Shown here one piece after another: positions 25,452-33,170 of a stretch of 64,000 nucleotides of DNA (its first letter is position 1; every line of letters begins with the position of its first letter). A program made the position numbers and the translations under genes. Under the pieces are notes generated by a model, which was not told the origin of the DNA, did not search any database, and saw only the letters and a list, made by a program, of their open reading frames with translations. The stretch lies in the NCBI GenBank assembly GCA_016214955.1, contig JACRMN010000023.1, positions 336,501 through 400,500 on the forward strand, in the 5' to 3' direction. Source of the stretch: Deltaproteobacteria bacterium. Lineage in GTDB: Bacteria; Myxococcota; Myxococcia; Myxococcales; Anaeromyxobacteraceae.

Positions 25452-27812
25452 TCAGCGCCGGGCCACCAGGTGGAGTCCGCGGCCGTCGCCCGCCGGCAGC
25501 CCCGGCCCCTGGCCCGCCTCGTCGGCGCGGGCGCGGTAGACGGCCACCAGGGCCTCGCCCATGGCGGCCCCCGCCTGCCGCAGCTGGCGCAGCGTCAGGG
25601 TGCACTCGTCGAGCTGCCCCTCGGCCAGGAGCTCGTCGATGCGCTTCTGGCAGAGCTGCGAGAGGCGCTCCGGCGTCGGCTCGGCCAGCGCCCGCGCCGA
25701 GGCCTCGGCCACGTCGGCGATCATCACCAGCGCCGCCTCGGGCGTGCGGGGTCGCGGCCCGGGATAGCGGAAGGGCTCGTCGTCCACGGCCGCCGGATCC
25801 TCCCACGGGCCCGCCCCCTCGGAGGCCTCCTTGCGCGCCTTCTGCAGGAAGTAGGAGACGAGCCGGGTCCCGTGGTGCTGGGCCACCACCGCCTGCACCG
25901 CGGCAGGGAGCTTCCAGCGGCGCGCCAGCTCCAGGCCGTCGACCACGTGGCGCCGGACGATGAGCGAGCTCATGGAGGGGGCGAGCTGCTCGTGCCGGTT
26001 CTCTCCGCGCTGGTTCTCGGCGAAGTAGAGCGGGTTCCTGATCTTGCCGACGTCGTGGTAGTAGGCGCAGACCCGCGCCAGCAGCGGGTTGGCGCCGGCC
26101 GCCTCTGCCGCCGCCTCCACCATGGCCCCCATGATCACCGAGTGGTGGTAGGTGCCGGGGGCCTGGACGATGAGGTCCTTGAGCGCCGGGTGGTTGAGGT
26201 TGGCCAGCTCCTGGAGCCGCACGTCGGTCAGGTAGCCGAGCGCCCGCTCGGCCAGCGGGAGCAGCACCGAGACCGCCGCCGGGAGGAGCAGTGCACCGCC
26301 CAGGAAGGCGAAGCCGGCCGGGGCCAGCGCCTCGCCCGGCAGGCGCCCGGCGAAGAGCTGGGCCGCCGCCGCCAGGAGCGCCCCGACGAGCCCCACGCCG
26401 GCCCCCGCCTCGACGAGCCCGAGCCTGTCGCGCGAGCGCGGCGCCAGCACCGACGCGGCCACGCCCGAGAGCACCGCCTCGAAGGCGAAGAACAGCGAGT
26501 TGCCCGCCAGGATGCCCACGCCCAGGCCGGCGGCCACCGCGAAGCGCAGGGCGGTGTCGGCCCCCAGCAGCGAGCGCACCACCATGGCGCCGGCGGCGAA
26601 GGGGAGCAGGTGGTAGAAGGCCTCTGGCGGGATGCGCGGGAAGCGGTCGTGGAGGGCGTCGCCCGCCGCCAGGCCGGCCCCCGACAGCGCCCAGGTGCCC
26701 ACCAGCAGCACCGCCAGCAGCACCGCGTCGCGCCGCGACGGGCGGGGCGAGGCGCCGGACGCGGCGGCGTGGCGCCAGAGCAGCAGCACCAGCAGGAGGG
26801 CCAGGGCTGCCGCGCCCAGCCGCACCGCCCACAGGTCGCGGGCCCGGGTCTGGGCCTGGATGCCGGCGAAGAGCAGCAGGTGGCGGCGCTCGATGCGCTC
26901 GCCGTCGCCCACGAGCCGCTCGCCGCGCCGCACCTGGATGACCGTGGGCTTCACCCGCTCGGCCGCCAGCCGCTGGGCGCGCGCCGTCTCGGCCATGTTC
27001 ACGGTCAGCGTGGGTCGGAGCCGCGCCTGGGCCACGCGCACCACCGCCTCGCGCTGCGCCGGCGCGGTGCCGGGCGGCACCGCCGCCCCCTCGCGCCGCA
27101 CCTGCTCGCGGGCGCCGCGCAGGTCGCGCACCAGCGCCAGGTCGCGCACCAGGCGGCTCCCCTGGTTGCCGGTGGCCCGGAGCGACCGGACCACGATGCC
27201 GCGCTCGGCGTCGGCCTGCAGCCGCTCGCGGTCCTCGATGACCATGCCGGTGAGGCCGTGGGCGGCGAGGCCGGCGGCGAGCTGCTCCAGCTCCGGGTCG
27301 AAGCGGGCCAGCGCCAGAGCGGCGAGGTCGGGCTCGCGCAGCGGCACCCCCAGCTGGGCCTCGAAGGCCTCGCGGGCCGCTGCCAGCGGGCGGGGCCCCG
27401 GCGGGCGGCCGGGCAGCTCGGCCAGGACCTCGCGCGCGGCCTGGAAGGCGGCGCGGATGCGGGCCACCGCCTCCTCGGCGGCGTCCTCGTCCAGATCGTA
27501 GACCGTGGGCTCGGCGGCGGCCGCCTCCTCGCGGAGCTGGGCGGTGGCGTCGGCGTCGAGGAGCTCGTAGTCGCGCGCCGCCTTGAGCGCGACCGGCGCC
27601 GGGGTGCCCAGCGCCTCCTCGCCCGGGAAGCGCTGCGAGAGCTCGGGGGGGGTGAGGAGCCAGGCGGCCGCCACGGCCACCCCCAGCGCCAGGACCGCGC
27701 CCAGGGCCCAGCCGGCCGGGTCCTTGCCCGGCAGCGGCTGCACCAGCCGGGCGAGCAGGCCTGGGGCTTTCTGGGAGGGGTCGGGGCTCGACACGGAGGC
27801 GGAGCCTGTCAC
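25452..27812 (-). CDS. 7TM receptor-like HD phosphohydrolase (PgpH/YqfF family)
   Basis: About 786 residues. One N-terminal membrane helix (GAVLALGVAVAAAWLL) is followed by a long extracytoplasmic 7TMR-HDED domain (about 60-330), seven membrane helices (about 335-545), then a cytoplasmic HD domain with metal ligands in TYHHSV, YYHDVGK and VVAQHHGT. Characterised relatives (Listeria PgpH) hydrolyse cyclic di-AMP. The start is uncertain: GTG at 27812 (chosen), 27881 or 27794, none with a good ribosome site. The gene directly precedes ybeY, as in many bacteria, but is parted from phoH by two inserted genes. Confidence 0.87.
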   Translation of the reverse strand: MTGSASVSSPDPSQKAPGLLARLVQPLPGKDPAGWALGAVLALGVAVAAAWLLTPPELSQRFPGEEALGTPAPVALKAARDYELLDADATAQLREEAAAAEPTVYDLDEDAAEEAVARIRAAFQAAREVLAELPGRPPGPRPLAAAREAFEAQLGVPLREPDLAALALARFDPELEQLAAGLAAHGLTGMVIEDRERLQADAERGIVVRSLRATGNQGSRLVRDLALVRDLRGAREQVRREGAAVPPGTAPAQREAVVRVAQARLRPTLTVNMAETARAQRLAAERVKPTVIQVRRGERLVGDGERIERRHLLLFAGIQAQTRARDLWAVRLGAAALALLLVLLLWRHAAASGASPRPSRRDAVLLAVLLVGTWALSGAGLAAGDALHDRFPRIPPEAFYHLLPFAAGAMVVRSLLGADTALRFAVAAGLGVGILAGNSLFFAFEAVLSGVAASVLAPRSRDRLGLVEAGAGVGLVGALLAAAAQLFAGRLPGEALAPAGFAFLGGALLLPAAVSVLLPLAERALGYLTDVRLQELANLNHPALKDLIVQAPGTYHHSVIMGAMVEAAAEAAGANPLLARVCAYYHDVGKIRNPLYFAENQRGENRHEQLAPSMSSLIVRRHVVDGLELARRWKLPAAVQAVVAQHHGTRLVSYFLQKARKEASEGAGPWEDPAAVDDEPFRYPGPRPRTPEAALVMIADVAEASARALAEPTPERLSQLCQKRIDELLAEGQLDECTLTLRQLRQAGAAMGEALVAVYRARADEAGQGPGLPAGDGRGLHLVARR

Positions 27813-27955
27813 CCGAACAAGGGAAAGGCAACGTGCCGGGGAGGGGGCCCCGGAGGTGGGGATTGCCGAGGAAGTACGCACGGCCCGGAACCGCTGCCGC
27901 GACCCCTACATCGACCCCGTCCGCGACCCCGGCCCCGCCTCCAGGCCAGTCGGGC

Positions 27956-29446
27956 TCAGGGCCCCGTCTCGAGGCCGTAGCGCACGGGGTCGTTGCAGAC
28001 CACCGCCGCCGCCAGCACGCGCGGGACGTAGTCCATGGTCTCGGCCGGCAGGCGCTTCAGCCGGTACAGGTGCCAGAAGTCCCGCTTCTCCTTGCGGAAG
28101 CCGTCCTTCTCCTGGGCGACCTGGTGGAGCACGCGCCGCACGCCGGCCTCGCCGCGGTTGTAACTGGCCAGCGCCAGCATGAAGGAGTCGGCGCCGAACT
28201 CGGCCAGCAGGTTGGCGAGCTTCCGGGCCGCGGCGCGCGTCTGCCTGGGCACGTCGAGCCGCTCGTCCACCTCGTCGTCGACCCGCAGGCCCAGCTCCCG
28301 CGCCGTCCCGGGGGTCATCTGCCACATGCCCCTGGCGCCGGCGGAGGAGACGGCCTCGGGATCGAACTGGGTCTCGGCCCAGGCGATGTAGGCCATCTCC
28401 TCGGGCAGCCCCAGCGCCGCGAACTCGCGGGTGATGGCCTTCCAGTGCCGGTTGCGCCGCTTGTAGACGAACTTCAGGTTGCTGGAGCGGGCGAGGATGT
28501 CCACCTGCTCCCGCAGCGCCTCCTTGAAGACGGGCGGGATGGCGTAGGTCTGGGCATCGAACTTGGCGAGGATGCGCCGGATGGCCCGGTCGAGGTCGTC
28601 GCCGGCCTCCTCCAGCTCCCGGGCCGCGATGCGATCCTGCTCGGCCACCCGGCCCAGCGTGGTGCGGGCGCTGCCCGTCAGTTCGGCCAGCCTCTGCTCC
28701 AGGGCGGCCAGCTTGTCCTCGTCGCTCTCGCCCGCCATCGCCGCCTGCACCGCCTCGATCTCGCGGTCGAGCCGGGCCTTCTCCCCCACCAGCCGCTGCA
28801 GCTCGCGCCGCTGCATGGCCACCACCAGGCCCAGGAGCCCCGCCACCACCAGGCCCAGGCCGGCCACCGCCAGCACCACCCGGAGCCAGCGGCGGCCGGA
28901 GCGGCGCTTGGTGTCCTGGTGCATCTCGGCCAGGGCGTCGGCCATGATGGCCACCGTCTTGCCCGACTTGCCCCCCTGGCGGGCCCGCTCCTCCATGAGC
29001 TTCTGGGCCGCCTGCTCCGCCACCCGGAGTGCGGCGGTGTCGGCGCGGTCTCTCACCCGCGCAGCCATCTCGTCCGACTCCAGCCGCTTCCGCTCCGGCG
29101 CCGGGGTGAGCTTGGTCATGGGGCCGAGCGACTGCAGTCCCGTGCCGTCGGCGAGCTCCACCCGCGCCGAGGCCCCGCCGCCGAAGACCAGCACGTCACC
29201 GCTGGCCAGCCGGCGGCGCGAGACCTTCTCGCCGTTCACCAGCGTGCCGTTGGTGGAGGCGGTGTCGATGATGGCCCAGCCCCCGCCCTCGGCCACGATC
29301 TCGGCGTGGTGGGCCGAGACCTCGGGGTCGGCCTGCTTGTCGAAGCGCACGTCGCAGTCCGGGGCCCGGCCGATGCGCACCGCCGGCTGGGCGAAGCTGG
29401 CCTCGGTCCCCTGCAGGCTGCCCGACAGGAAGGTGAGCTTGAGCAT
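27956..29446 (-). CDS. FHA domain - transmembrane - lytic transglycosylase fusion
   Basis: 496 residues. Residues 5-95 form an FHA phosphothreonine-binding domain with the conserved Gly-Arg (GRAPDCDVRF), SAHHAEI and STNGTLVNG motifs. A helical cytoplasmic linker leads to one membrane helix (about 187-210). Outside are coiled-coil sequence (212-290) and a C-terminal SLT lytic transglycosylase domain. Its catalytic Glu is E358 in AETQFDPEAVSSAGARGMW, and the substrate-cleft motif MTPGTARELG follows. ATG at 29446 lies 6 bp after the kinase stop, so the two share a transcript. Predicted: cytoplasmic phospho-signal controls periplasmic wall cleavage. Confidence 0.85.
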   Translation of the reverse strand: MLKLTFLSGSLQGTEASFAQPAVRIGRAPDCDVRFDKQADPEVSAHHAEIVAEGGGWAIIDTASTNGTLVNGEKVSRRRLASGDVLVFGGGASARVELADGTGLQSLGPMTKLTPAPERKRLESDEMAARVRDRADTAALRVAEQAAQKLMEERARQGGKSGKTVAIMADALAEMHQDTKRRSGRRWLRVVLAVAGLGLVVAGLLGLVVAMQRRELQRLVGEKARLDREIEAVQAAMAGESDEDKLAALEQRLAELTGSARTTLGRVAEQDRIAARELEEAGDDLDRAIRRILAKFDAQTYAIPPVFKEALREQVDILARSSNLKFVYKRRNRHWKAITREFAALGLPEEMAYIAWAETQFDPEAVSSAGARGMWQMTPGTARELGLRVDDEVDERLDVPRQTRAAARKLANLLAEFGADSFMLALASYNRGEAGVRRVLHQVAQEKDGFRKEKRDFWHLYRLKRLPAETMDYVPRVLAAAVVCNDPVRYGLETGP

Positions 29447-29452
29447 GGCGCC

Positions 29453-32062
29453 CTAGCTGGCCGGCAGGTCCATCCGGCGGAGCAGGGCTGCGTAGCGCGG
29501 CTCGCCGTGGAGCGCCCGGAGCAGCGGGTCGAACTGGAGCGACTCCAGCGCCACCTCGTGGCGCGCGAAGGAGCGGTCGAGCCAGGAGAAGGCCTGGTCC
29601 GTCTCCCCGCGGAAGGCGTGGACCTGGGCGATGGGGTAGGCCACCCGCTCGCCGAAGCGCGAAGCCAGGGCGTCGAGGGCGTGCTGCGAGGCGCGGGCGT
29701 GGCCCAGCCCGTGGTGCGCCAGGGCGGCGCCCCAGAGGCGCGCGCGCTCGTCGGGCAGCTCCTCGGCGATGGAGAGGGCCGCCTGCCCCTCGCCGGCCAG
29801 CAGGGCCGCCAGCAGCGCCTGGGTCCGCCCCATGCCCTGGCTCTGCGGGCTGATCTCGCGGGAGAGGTCGAGCGCCTCGCGCGCCGGCCCCACCTCGCCG
29901 AGCGCCAGGTGGCGCGCCGCCAGGTTGACCCAGCCGGCGGGGTTGAGGGGGTCGAGCCCGCCGGCCCTCTTCTCCACGTCGATGGACTCGCGGATGCGCC
30001 CGTGGGCCGCCAGCAGCCAGCCCTGGGTGCGCAGCGCCCGTACGTCGCCGGGGTCGAGGGCCAGGGCCCGGGCGATGTCGGCCTCGGCGCCCTGCCAGTC
30101 CCAGGTCATGGCCCGCAGGGTGGCGCGCACCGCGTGGGCGTCGGAGAGGGTGGGGCCGAGCCGCACCGCCTTCTCGGCCGCCTCCACGGCCCGGCGCCGC
30201 AGGTCGGGGACGCCGGCCAGCGTCTCCTCGCCGGCGGCGCTCCAGAGCATGGCGAGGGCGATGGCCAGGCCCGACCAGGCAGGGGCGTAGAGGGGGTCGA
30301 GGCGCAGCGCCTGCTCGTGGGCCTCGGCGGCGGCCCGGTAGCCGTCGGCGGTGCCGCGGTTGTGGAGCTGGCGGCCCCGCAGGTAGTGGGCGTAGGCCTC
30401 GGGGGTGGTGGCGCGGTCGGCGGTGGAGGCCGGGCCGTGGCCCGGGAGCAGCTTCACCTTGAGCGCCGAGACCACCGCTCGGGCGATCTCGTCCTGGATG
30501 GCGAAGACGTTGGCCGCCTCGCGGTCGTACACCTCCGACCAGAGCGTGAGGCCGTCGGCGACGCTGATCACCTGGGCGGTGATGCGGACCCGCGCGCCGT
30601 CGCGGCGCACGCCACCCTCCACCACCGCGCCGACGCCCAGCTTCCGGCCGATGGCCCGCAGATCCTCCTGCTTGCCCTTGAAGGAGAAGGAGGAGGTTCG
30701 GCCCGCCACCCGCAGCCCATCGACGTGGGCCAGGGCGTTGAGGATCTCCTCGGCGACGCCGTCGGAGAAGTGCTCCTGGTCGCGCGCCGGGCTCATGTCG
30801 CGGAAGGGCAGCACCGCCACCGAGGGGGTGGCGGAGGTTGTCGCCTGCACCTCCACCGGCTCGGGCGGCGCCTGGGGTGGCGCCGGGAGCGGCGCCCGCT
30901 CGCGGCGGGAGGCAGGGAGCGCGGCCGGGACCCGCGCCCGCCAGGCGAGGCGGGTGAGCGCGGCGACCACCGCCAGCAGCCCCACGGCGCCCGCCACCTG
31001 GGGCAGTACCGCCAGCGAGCCGCTCACCACCAGCGGCGCCGCCAGGAAGGCGAGGGAGAGGACCCCTGCGGCGAGGAGCAGCGCCCAGGCGGGCACCGCG
31101 CGCCAGCCGGTGGGCCGCACCACCCGGGCCACCGGCTCCCGGCCGCCCTCGCGGGGCAGCGCCTCGACCACGGCCTCGAGGTCCTCCAGCACCTCTCGGG
31201 CGTCGCGCGGGCGGGCCACCGGGTCCTTGGCCAGCATCCGCGCCAGCAGCTCCGCGAGGCCGGGGGCGGCGGGGAGGTCGAGCAGCGGCGCGGGCTCGGG
31301 GCCGCGGGCCGCCAGCTCGCCGGGAAAGGGCACCTCGCCGGTCAGGGTCTCGAAGAGCACCACGCCCTGGGCGAAGACGTCGGTGCGCTCGTCCTCGGGG
31401 GCCCCGCGCCACTGCTCCGGGGCCATGTAGGAGGGGGTGCCGCCGGCGAAGGTGCGGTGGCCGAAGGCGTGGGCCATGCCCAGGTCGAGCAGCTTCACCT
31501 GGCCGTCCTCGCAGAGGAAGACGTTGCCGGGCTTCACGTCGCGGTGGACGACGCCCTGGGCGTGGGCGTGGGCCAGCCCCTTGGCCATGTCCACCGCCAC
31601 CCGCAGCGCCTCGCGCACCGGCATCGGCCCCTGGCGCAGCCGCTGCGCGAGCGTGCCGCCCCGCAGCAGCTCGAGGATGAGGTACGGGCCCTGCGGCCCG
31701 CGCCCCACGTCGTAGAGGGTGACGATGTTGGGGTGGGAGAGCCGGGCGGCCGCCTCCGCCTCCCGCAGCAGCCGCTCCTGGCGGACGTCGGGGTGCTCGC
31801 CGCCGCGCACCGCCTTGAAGGCCACTGCCCGGGGCAGCTCGCGATCGCGCGCCTCCCAGACCACGCCGAAGCCCCCGCGGCCCAGCTCGCGCACCAGCTC
31901 GAAGCGGCCCACCACCGAGCCGGGGCGGAGCACCGGGTCCCAGGCGGAGGCAGGCGACGGGGCCTGCGCCAGCTCGACGAGCAGCGCCGACAGCGCCCCC
32001 GGACGCACCGGGAGCGTCTCGGGGACCTCCGCTTCCTTTCCCTCCGGCTCTGCCAAGCCCAC
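29453..32062 (-). CDS. Hanks-type Ser/Thr protein kinase with TolB-like and TPR regions
   Basis: 869 residues. Kinase domain about 53-310: glycine loop GRGGFGVVW (61-69), ATP lysine K83 (VAFKAV), catalytic HRDVKPGN (173-180) and APE (214-216). The DFG motif is DLG (D193), a change seen in other active kinases. Two hydrophobic segments (about 325-375) form a membrane hairpin. A FlgO/TolB-like N-terminal domain (TPSVAVLPFRDMSP, WSEVYDREAANVFAIQDEIA) and about seven TPR-like repeats to the end follow. GTG start at 32062. It is paired with the FHA-transglycosylase gene, its likely substrate. Confidence 0.87.
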   Translation of the reverse strand: MGLAEPEGKEAEVPETLPVRPGALSALLVELAQAPSPASAWDPVLRPGSVVGRFELVRELGRGGFGVVWEARDRELPRAVAFKAVRGGEHPDVRQERLLREAEAAARLSHPNIVTLYDVGRGPQGPYLILELLRGGTLAQRLRQGPMPVREALRVAVDMAKGLAHAHAQGVVHRDVKPGNVFLCEDGQVKLLDLGMAHAFGHRTFAGGTPSYMAPEQWRGAPEDERTDVFAQGVVLFETLTGEVPFPGELAARGPEPAPLLDLPAAPGLAELLARMLAKDPVARPRDAREVLEDLEAVVEALPREGGREPVARVVRPTGWRAVPAWALLLAAGVLSLAFLAAPLVVSGSLAVLPQVAGAVGLLAVVAALTRLAWRARVPAALPASRRERAPLPAPPQAPPEPVEVQATTSATPSVAVLPFRDMSPARDQEHFSDGVAEEILNALAHVDGLRVAGRTSSFSFKGKQEDLRAIGRKLGVGAVVEGGVRRDGARVRITAQVISVADGLTLWSEVYDREAANVFAIQDEIARAVVSALKVKLLPGHGPASTADRATTPEAYAHYLRGRQLHNRGTADGYRAAAEAHEQALRLDPLYAPAWSGLAIALAMLWSAAGEETLAGVPDLRRRAVEAAEKAVRLGPTLSDAHAVRATLRAMTWDWQGAEADIARALALDPGDVRALRTQGWLLAAHGRIRESIDVEKRAGGLDPLNPAGWVNLAARHLALGEVGPAREALDLSREISPQSQGMGRTQALLAALLAGEGQAALSIAEELPDERARLWGAALAHHGLGHARASQHALDALASRFGERVAYPIAQVHAFRGETDQAFSWLDRSFARHEVALESLQFDPLLRALHGEPRYAALLRRMDLPAS

Positions 32063-32153: not shown

Positions 32154-33170
<1,017 letters not shown>

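Follow-up and report, generated by a model that had tools for sequence, protein, structure and literature searches.

A membrane Ser/Thr kinase and an FHA-linked transmembrane lytic transglycosylase encoded side by side in a myxobacterial genome

A 64,000-nucleotide stretch of a Deltaproteobacteria bacterium genome (Myxococcota, Anaeromyxobacteraceae; contig JACRMN010000023.1, positions 336,501 to 400,500; hereafter "the window", with positions counted from its first nucleotide) contains two adjacent minus-strand genes: an upstream gene encoding a membrane Ser/Thr kinase and, after a gap of 6 bp (29447-29452), a downstream gene encoding a protein that joins an FHA domain, one membrane helix, a coiled coil, and an SLT lytic transglycosylase domain (FHA-SLT; Table 1). 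Judging from sequence, we propose, with a probability of about 0.6, that the two genes specify a kinase and its effector, and that the effector is a kinase-controlled transmembrane lytic transglycosylase. The domains present, their intact residues, the conservation of those residues, recurrent linkage to kinase genes, and natural kinase-SLT fusions support this proposal. An earlier sequence-only reading of the window had described the same gene pair, with the same spacing, and had interpreted it as a possible phospho-switch for wall cleavage; the gene pair is as described, and the interpretation is partly supported, with the fusions adding to its support.

Both reading frames have a third-position GC content of 0.97-0.98, indicating that both are real genes, and Pfam searches recovered the predicted Pkinase, FHA, and SLT domains. 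The FHA-SLT protein contains the GR, SxxH, and NG residues of an FHA pocket (G26 and R27, S44 and H47, and N66 and G67), a single membrane helix by hydropathy, and, in the SLT domain, the catalytic glutamate characteristic of the MltD type (E358). The AlphaFold2 model comprises an FHA sandwich predicted with confidence, a linker of low confidence, a long helix (residues 184-239) that runs through the membrane into the coiled coil, and the SLT domain; Foldseek matches the model to Pseudomonas aeruginosa MltD (8rhe/8rhf) and to the FHA domains of GarA, OdhI, FhaA, and DgcB. The predicted topology places the FHA domain inside, and the SLT domain outside, the inner membrane. MltD provides both the best fold match and the best-scoring NCBIfam model (PRK10783), but the protein is not MltD proper: the score is 90.8 bits against a cut-off of 508, no LysM was found by Pfam, and the N-terminus is a cytoplasmic FHA domain, followed by a membrane helix, without a lipobox. 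Also rejected were identification as the gliding motility protein GltG (NCBIfam, 37.3 bits against 650), identification as the type VI secretion system (T6SS) protein TagH/Fha (42.5 bits against 120.25, with T6SS genes not directly beside the pair), and membership in the GarA/OdhI family (scores below the cut-offs).

The kinase has the motifs of a Hanks-type kinase (GRGGFG at residue 61, K83, HRDVKPGN at 173, DLG at 193, and APE at 214) and, with these motifs intact, looks active. Two adjacent hydrophobic segments within residues 321-374 are predicted to form a membrane hairpin, so the C-terminal TolB/TPR half of the protein is probably cytoplasmic. Identification as a PASTA kinase (PknB/Stk1) was rejected (222.8 bits against 450, over the kinase domain only, with no PASTA domain found by Pfam). 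The kinase (29453-32062) belongs to an expanded family of kinase-TolB-TPR paralogues, with 16 strong matches in the same genome.

FHA-SLT proteins are a real family, represented in Myxococcota and, as scanning of named genomes showed, also in Acidobacteriota, Fibrobacterota, and two metagenome-assembled genomes (MAGs) of Rubrivivax. Full-length matches are present in 27 of the 120 Fibrobacterota genomes surveyed and in a minority of myxococcal genomes, namely the window genome, one other of its family, most of family f7, and three that are scattered; the acidobacterial survey gave at least 5 of 297 (a lower bound, because only five candidates per genome were scored). The sequence-only reading had made conservation of the FHA residues and E358 decisive for its interpretation, and both are conserved: among 68 homologues, R27 is kept in 66, S44 in 66, H47 in 67, N66 in 65, and G67 in 65 (96-99%), and E358 is kept in 68 (100%).

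Between residues 93 and 229, a segment that includes the cytoplasmic linker and the membrane helix, Thr164 is the only residue at least 90% conserved (in the first 35 members), the linker being otherwise variable. Position 164 is Thr in 61 of the 68 homologues, Ile in 6, and a gap in 1, and is never Ser, Asp, or Asn; position 167 (+3) is I, L, M, F, Y, or V in every row but one, which has a gap. Since recognition by FHA domains often involves the +3 residue (PMC6733907), which is hydrophobic here, Thr164 is a candidate phospho-site and a candidate ligand of the FHA domain of its own or a partner chain.

The kinase-effector proposal can be stated as a series of steps. The inner-membrane kinase would phosphorylate one or more threonines in the cytoplasm. 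The effector, an MltD-like lytic transglycosylase anchored in the inner membrane so that its phosphothreonine-reading FHA domain faces the cytoplasm and its catalytic SLT domain lies outside, would capture a phosphothreonine, located either on the kinase or at juxtamembrane Thr164 of its own or a partner chain; capture would change how the membrane-spanning coiled coil dimerises or where it is placed; and the change in the coiled coil would alter the activity or the location of wall cutting. Of this series, the first and the last member are seen as domains; the links between kinase, phosphothreonine, FHA capture, and coiled-coil change are what we infer, together with the phospho-ligand and the direction of the switch (activation or inhibition).

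Control of the wall by a kinase and an FHA domain is already known from the PknB-FhaA-MviN system of Mycobacterium, in which a Ser/Thr kinase and an FHA protein control peptidoglycan work, and a structure from that system (3oun, FhaA FHA with Rv3910/MviN) matches our model. FhaA, however, is a separate adaptor, whereas in the window protein the FHA domain and the wall-cutting enzyme share one covalent chain. In both sequence and fold, the nearest FHA domains are those of GarA and OdhI, whose phosphothreonine-dependent binding in cis provides a model for Thr164, but GarA and OdhI are soluble metabolic regulators that have neither a membrane helix nor an enzyme domain and that carry the phospho-motif N-terminal to the FHA domain. 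Bdellovibrio DgcB (FHA-GGDEF) likewise has an FHA domain and an enzyme in one chain, and its FHA domain binds its own phosphorylated tail through a +3 specificity pocket (PMC6733907), setting a precedent for the kinase-effector proposal; DgcB differs in being a cytoplasmic diguanylate cyclase with the phospho-site N-terminal to the FHA domain. No published description of the FHA-SLT architecture or the kinase operon was found in the limited literature searched, which is not proof of absence.

Kinase linkage recurs outside Myxococcota. In Fibrobacterota, a co-directional kinase gene lies immediately upstream of the FHA-SLT gene in 13 of the 29 loci read, and one further locus (L221) adds a fourteenth species. 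The upstream kinase is of CHASE2-Pkinase architecture in 3/3 loci examined by Pfam, and all 12 gene-called upstream kinases form one sequence cluster. A related protein precedes the kinase in 11 of 12 loci (FecR by Pfam in 11/11, with LysM detectable in 2); the Fibrobacterota kinase carries a CHASE2 sensor and has a FecR partner, and the operon supplies a likely periplasmic sensor. In one acidobacterial locus (L223), the order is FHA-SLT and then kinase, again 6 bp apart. Kinase genes also neighbour FHA-SLT genes in T6SS loci, a further instance of the linkage. Because similar kinase-enzyme pairs are present in unrelated phyla, cytoplasmic phosphorylation probably controls wall cutting outside the membrane; because the kinase architecture differs between phyla, the pairings probably arose independently. 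A more ambitious version, which we advance only tentatively, is that these proteins are one-chain transmembrane switches across phyla: a wall-sensing kinase (FecR/LysM with CHASE2-kinase in Fibrobacterota) would phosphorylate the juxtamembrane Thr, and FHA capture would gate the transglycosylase, forming a feedback loop on peptidoglycan. The FecR - CHASE2-kinase - FHA-SLT operon is present at L221:3801-8923, L255, L257, L260, L262-L264, L266, L269, L271, and L282; a gene for a conserved cysteine-containing protein (cluster 3) often comes next.

Two f7 genomes (L069 and L071) encode proteins in which a Ser/Thr kinase replaces the FHA domain on the same membrane-coiled coil-SLT module, followed by a separate SLT gene. 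A maximum-likelihood tree built from the coiled coil and SLT domain places both fusions within a 24-row clade (100/99) that contains myxococcal-type FHA-SLT proteins, and, with the tree rooted on MltD-like proteins, they lie inside the FHA-SLT family as a whole. These sequences are most simply read as the outcome of an exchange of input domains in which a kinase took the place of the FHA domain.

Several observations weigh against the kinase-effector proposal. One homologue (L224:8258-9652) has lost the FHA pocket (R27T, S44R, N66 missing) and retains E358 and Thr164, a natural uncoupled variant, and six Fibrobacterota proteins keep the pocket and do not have Thr164; both cases are exceptions to the idea that Thr164 is read by the protein's own FHA domain. 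The genes that the sequence-only reading expected to be adjacent in relatives are so in the 14 Fibrobacterota species and the one acidobacterium, but not across Myxococcota, where no other FHA-SLT locus read has an adjacent kinase and the window is the sole case; an adjacent kinase is also missing at most acidobacterial FHA-SLT loci. Moreover, the kinase belongs to a large paralogous family, so its sequence does not show which partner it is specific for.

The first of these observations bears on whether Thr164 is a phospho-site or a structural residue at the start of a helix, to which we assign a chance not far short of even. A structural role is consistent with the position of Thr164 at the start of helix 163-182 in the model and with its retention in the protein with a dead FHA pocket; however, helix starts normally tolerate Ser, Asp, or Asn, and none of these occurs at position 164 in the 68 homologues.

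The latter observations bear on whether the adjacency is an accident, in which a kinase gene with dozens of paralogues came to lie next to an FHA-SLT gene without any interaction between the two proteins. This would fit a pairing unique within Myxococcota and a large, lineage-specific kinase family, but is unlikely, since closely spaced pairs are found again in two other phyla and kinase-SLT fusions exist. In addition, kinases make up ~0.6% of genes in 33 FHA-SLT-carrying genomes, so that an adjacent kinase is expected at ~1.2% of loci; with the window left out, an adjacent kinase was present at 3 of the first 40 loci, as compared to 0.5 expected (p ~0.01), in a test that predates the finding of the Fibrobacterota operon and in which the loci are not all independent.

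The main rival is recruitment, in which the FHA domain docks the transglycosylase on a phosphorylated cytoplasmic assembly (a T6SS membrane complex, or a division or motility machine) and the wall is opened locally with catalysis unswitched. Other Fibrobacterota FHA-SLT copies adjoin genes for TssK, TssL, TssM, or VgrG, several with a kinase gene within 4 kb; T6SS assembly uses the lytic transglycosylase MltE (PMC5841429); and differing neighbourhoods, such as an AAA-DUF1257-DUF2997 operon in Myxococcota, fit an adaptor role. In the T6SS threonine phosphorylation pathway (PpkA-Fha1), together with MltE, a kinase, an FHA protein, and a lytic transglycosylase likewise serve one machine, although there the FHA protein and the transglycosylase are separate. 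We consider recruitment doubtful, somewhat less so than accidental adjacency: the window pair is away from T6SS genes, even though a T6SS is encoded elsewhere in the same genome, no match to TssK was found in the FHA-SLT-rich family f7, and secretion genes are absent from the FecR-CHASE2-kinase operon of Fibrobacterota. The lack of a TssK match in f7 genomes also led us to reject a T6SS-only function as a general rule. Fibrobacterota type VI secretion loci with FHA-SLT and Ser/Thr kinase genes include L118:2171-15636, L268, L276, and L283, and FHA-SLT in such loci may be the secretion machine's own enzyme for opening the wall.

Little is settled about the ways in which bacteria turn lytic transglycosylases on and off across the membrane. 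An FHA domain joined to a transglycosylase, with a cognate kinase encoded next to it, would connect phosphorylation in the cytoplasm to wall cutting by a direct route that can be tested, and the natural kinase-SLT fusions and the FHA-dead homologue provide ready comparisons.

The gene order in the window is phoH - [kinase - FHA-SLT] - 7TMR-HD - ybeY - lnt. In 17 relatives in which both genes are readable, 2 of them from the same genus, phoH is immediately followed by the 7TMR-HD gene, indicating that the pair was inserted into an old operon, whose orientation it shares. We count the single insertion site and shared orientation in favour of the kinase-effector proposal.

Table 1. Features of the kinase/FHA-SLT gene pair and its borders in the window
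Feature	Position	Strand	Evidence
Membrane Ser/Thr protein kinase, 869 aa, GTG start	29453..32062	-	Pfam Pkinase E 1.3e-46; catalytic motifs intact
Kinase catalytic domain (residues 54-285)	31208..31903	-	Pfam PF00069
Kinase membrane hairpin (about residues 321-374)	30941..31102	-	Hydropathy
Kinase C-terminal TolB/CadC-like and TPR region (residues 402-869), probably cytoplasmic	29456..30859	-	Pfam TPR_17 and NCBIfam TolB/CadC/TPR partial matches; topology inferred
FHA-transmembrane-coiled coil-SLT protein, 496 aa, ATG start	27956..29446	-	Pfam FHA and SLT; AlphaFold2 model mean pLDDT 87.7
FHA domain (residues 23-89), R27, S44, H47, N66, G67	29180..29380	-	Pfam E 2.1e-19; Foldseek match to GarA, OdhI, FhaA FHA domains
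Thr164 codon: conserved juxtamembrane Thr, hydrophobic +3; candidate phospho-site	28955..28957	-	Conservation; function inferred
Single membrane helix (residues 186-213)	28808..28891	-	Hydropathy; continuous helix 184-239 in model
SLT lytic transglycosylase domain (residues 348-447)	28106..28405	-	Pfam E 3.9e-21; best Foldseek match P. aeruginosa MltD 8rhf
Catalytic Glu358 codon	28373..28375	-	Invariant in 68/68 homologues
phoH, upstream border of inserted pair	32154..33170	-	Pfam PhoH; adjoins 7TM-HD gene in relatives
7TMR-HD (YqfF/PgpH-like) gene, downstream border of inserted pair	25452..27881	-	Pfam 7TMR-HDED, 7TM-7TMR_HD, HD; synteny

In a myxococcal subgroup, the FHA-SLT gene lies in a conserved operon of the order AAA ATPase - DUF1257 - DUF2997 - FHA-SLT - PPC-like lipoprotein (L059-L063 and L066-L068; e.g., L066:6559-10376); DUF1257 and DUF2997 are otherwise mentioned for cyanobacteria (PMC4284462). 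A pseudogene reading of those paralogues that had been flagged for a single stop was rejected: their frames are open to the natural C-terminal stop, and only L065 appears frameshifted. The FHA-SLT protein closest to that of the window is encoded on a Holophagaceae MAG contig (L072:6016-7533) and is 64% identical, nearer than most myxococcal ones, a closeness that may reflect either horizontal transfer or a mis-binned contig.

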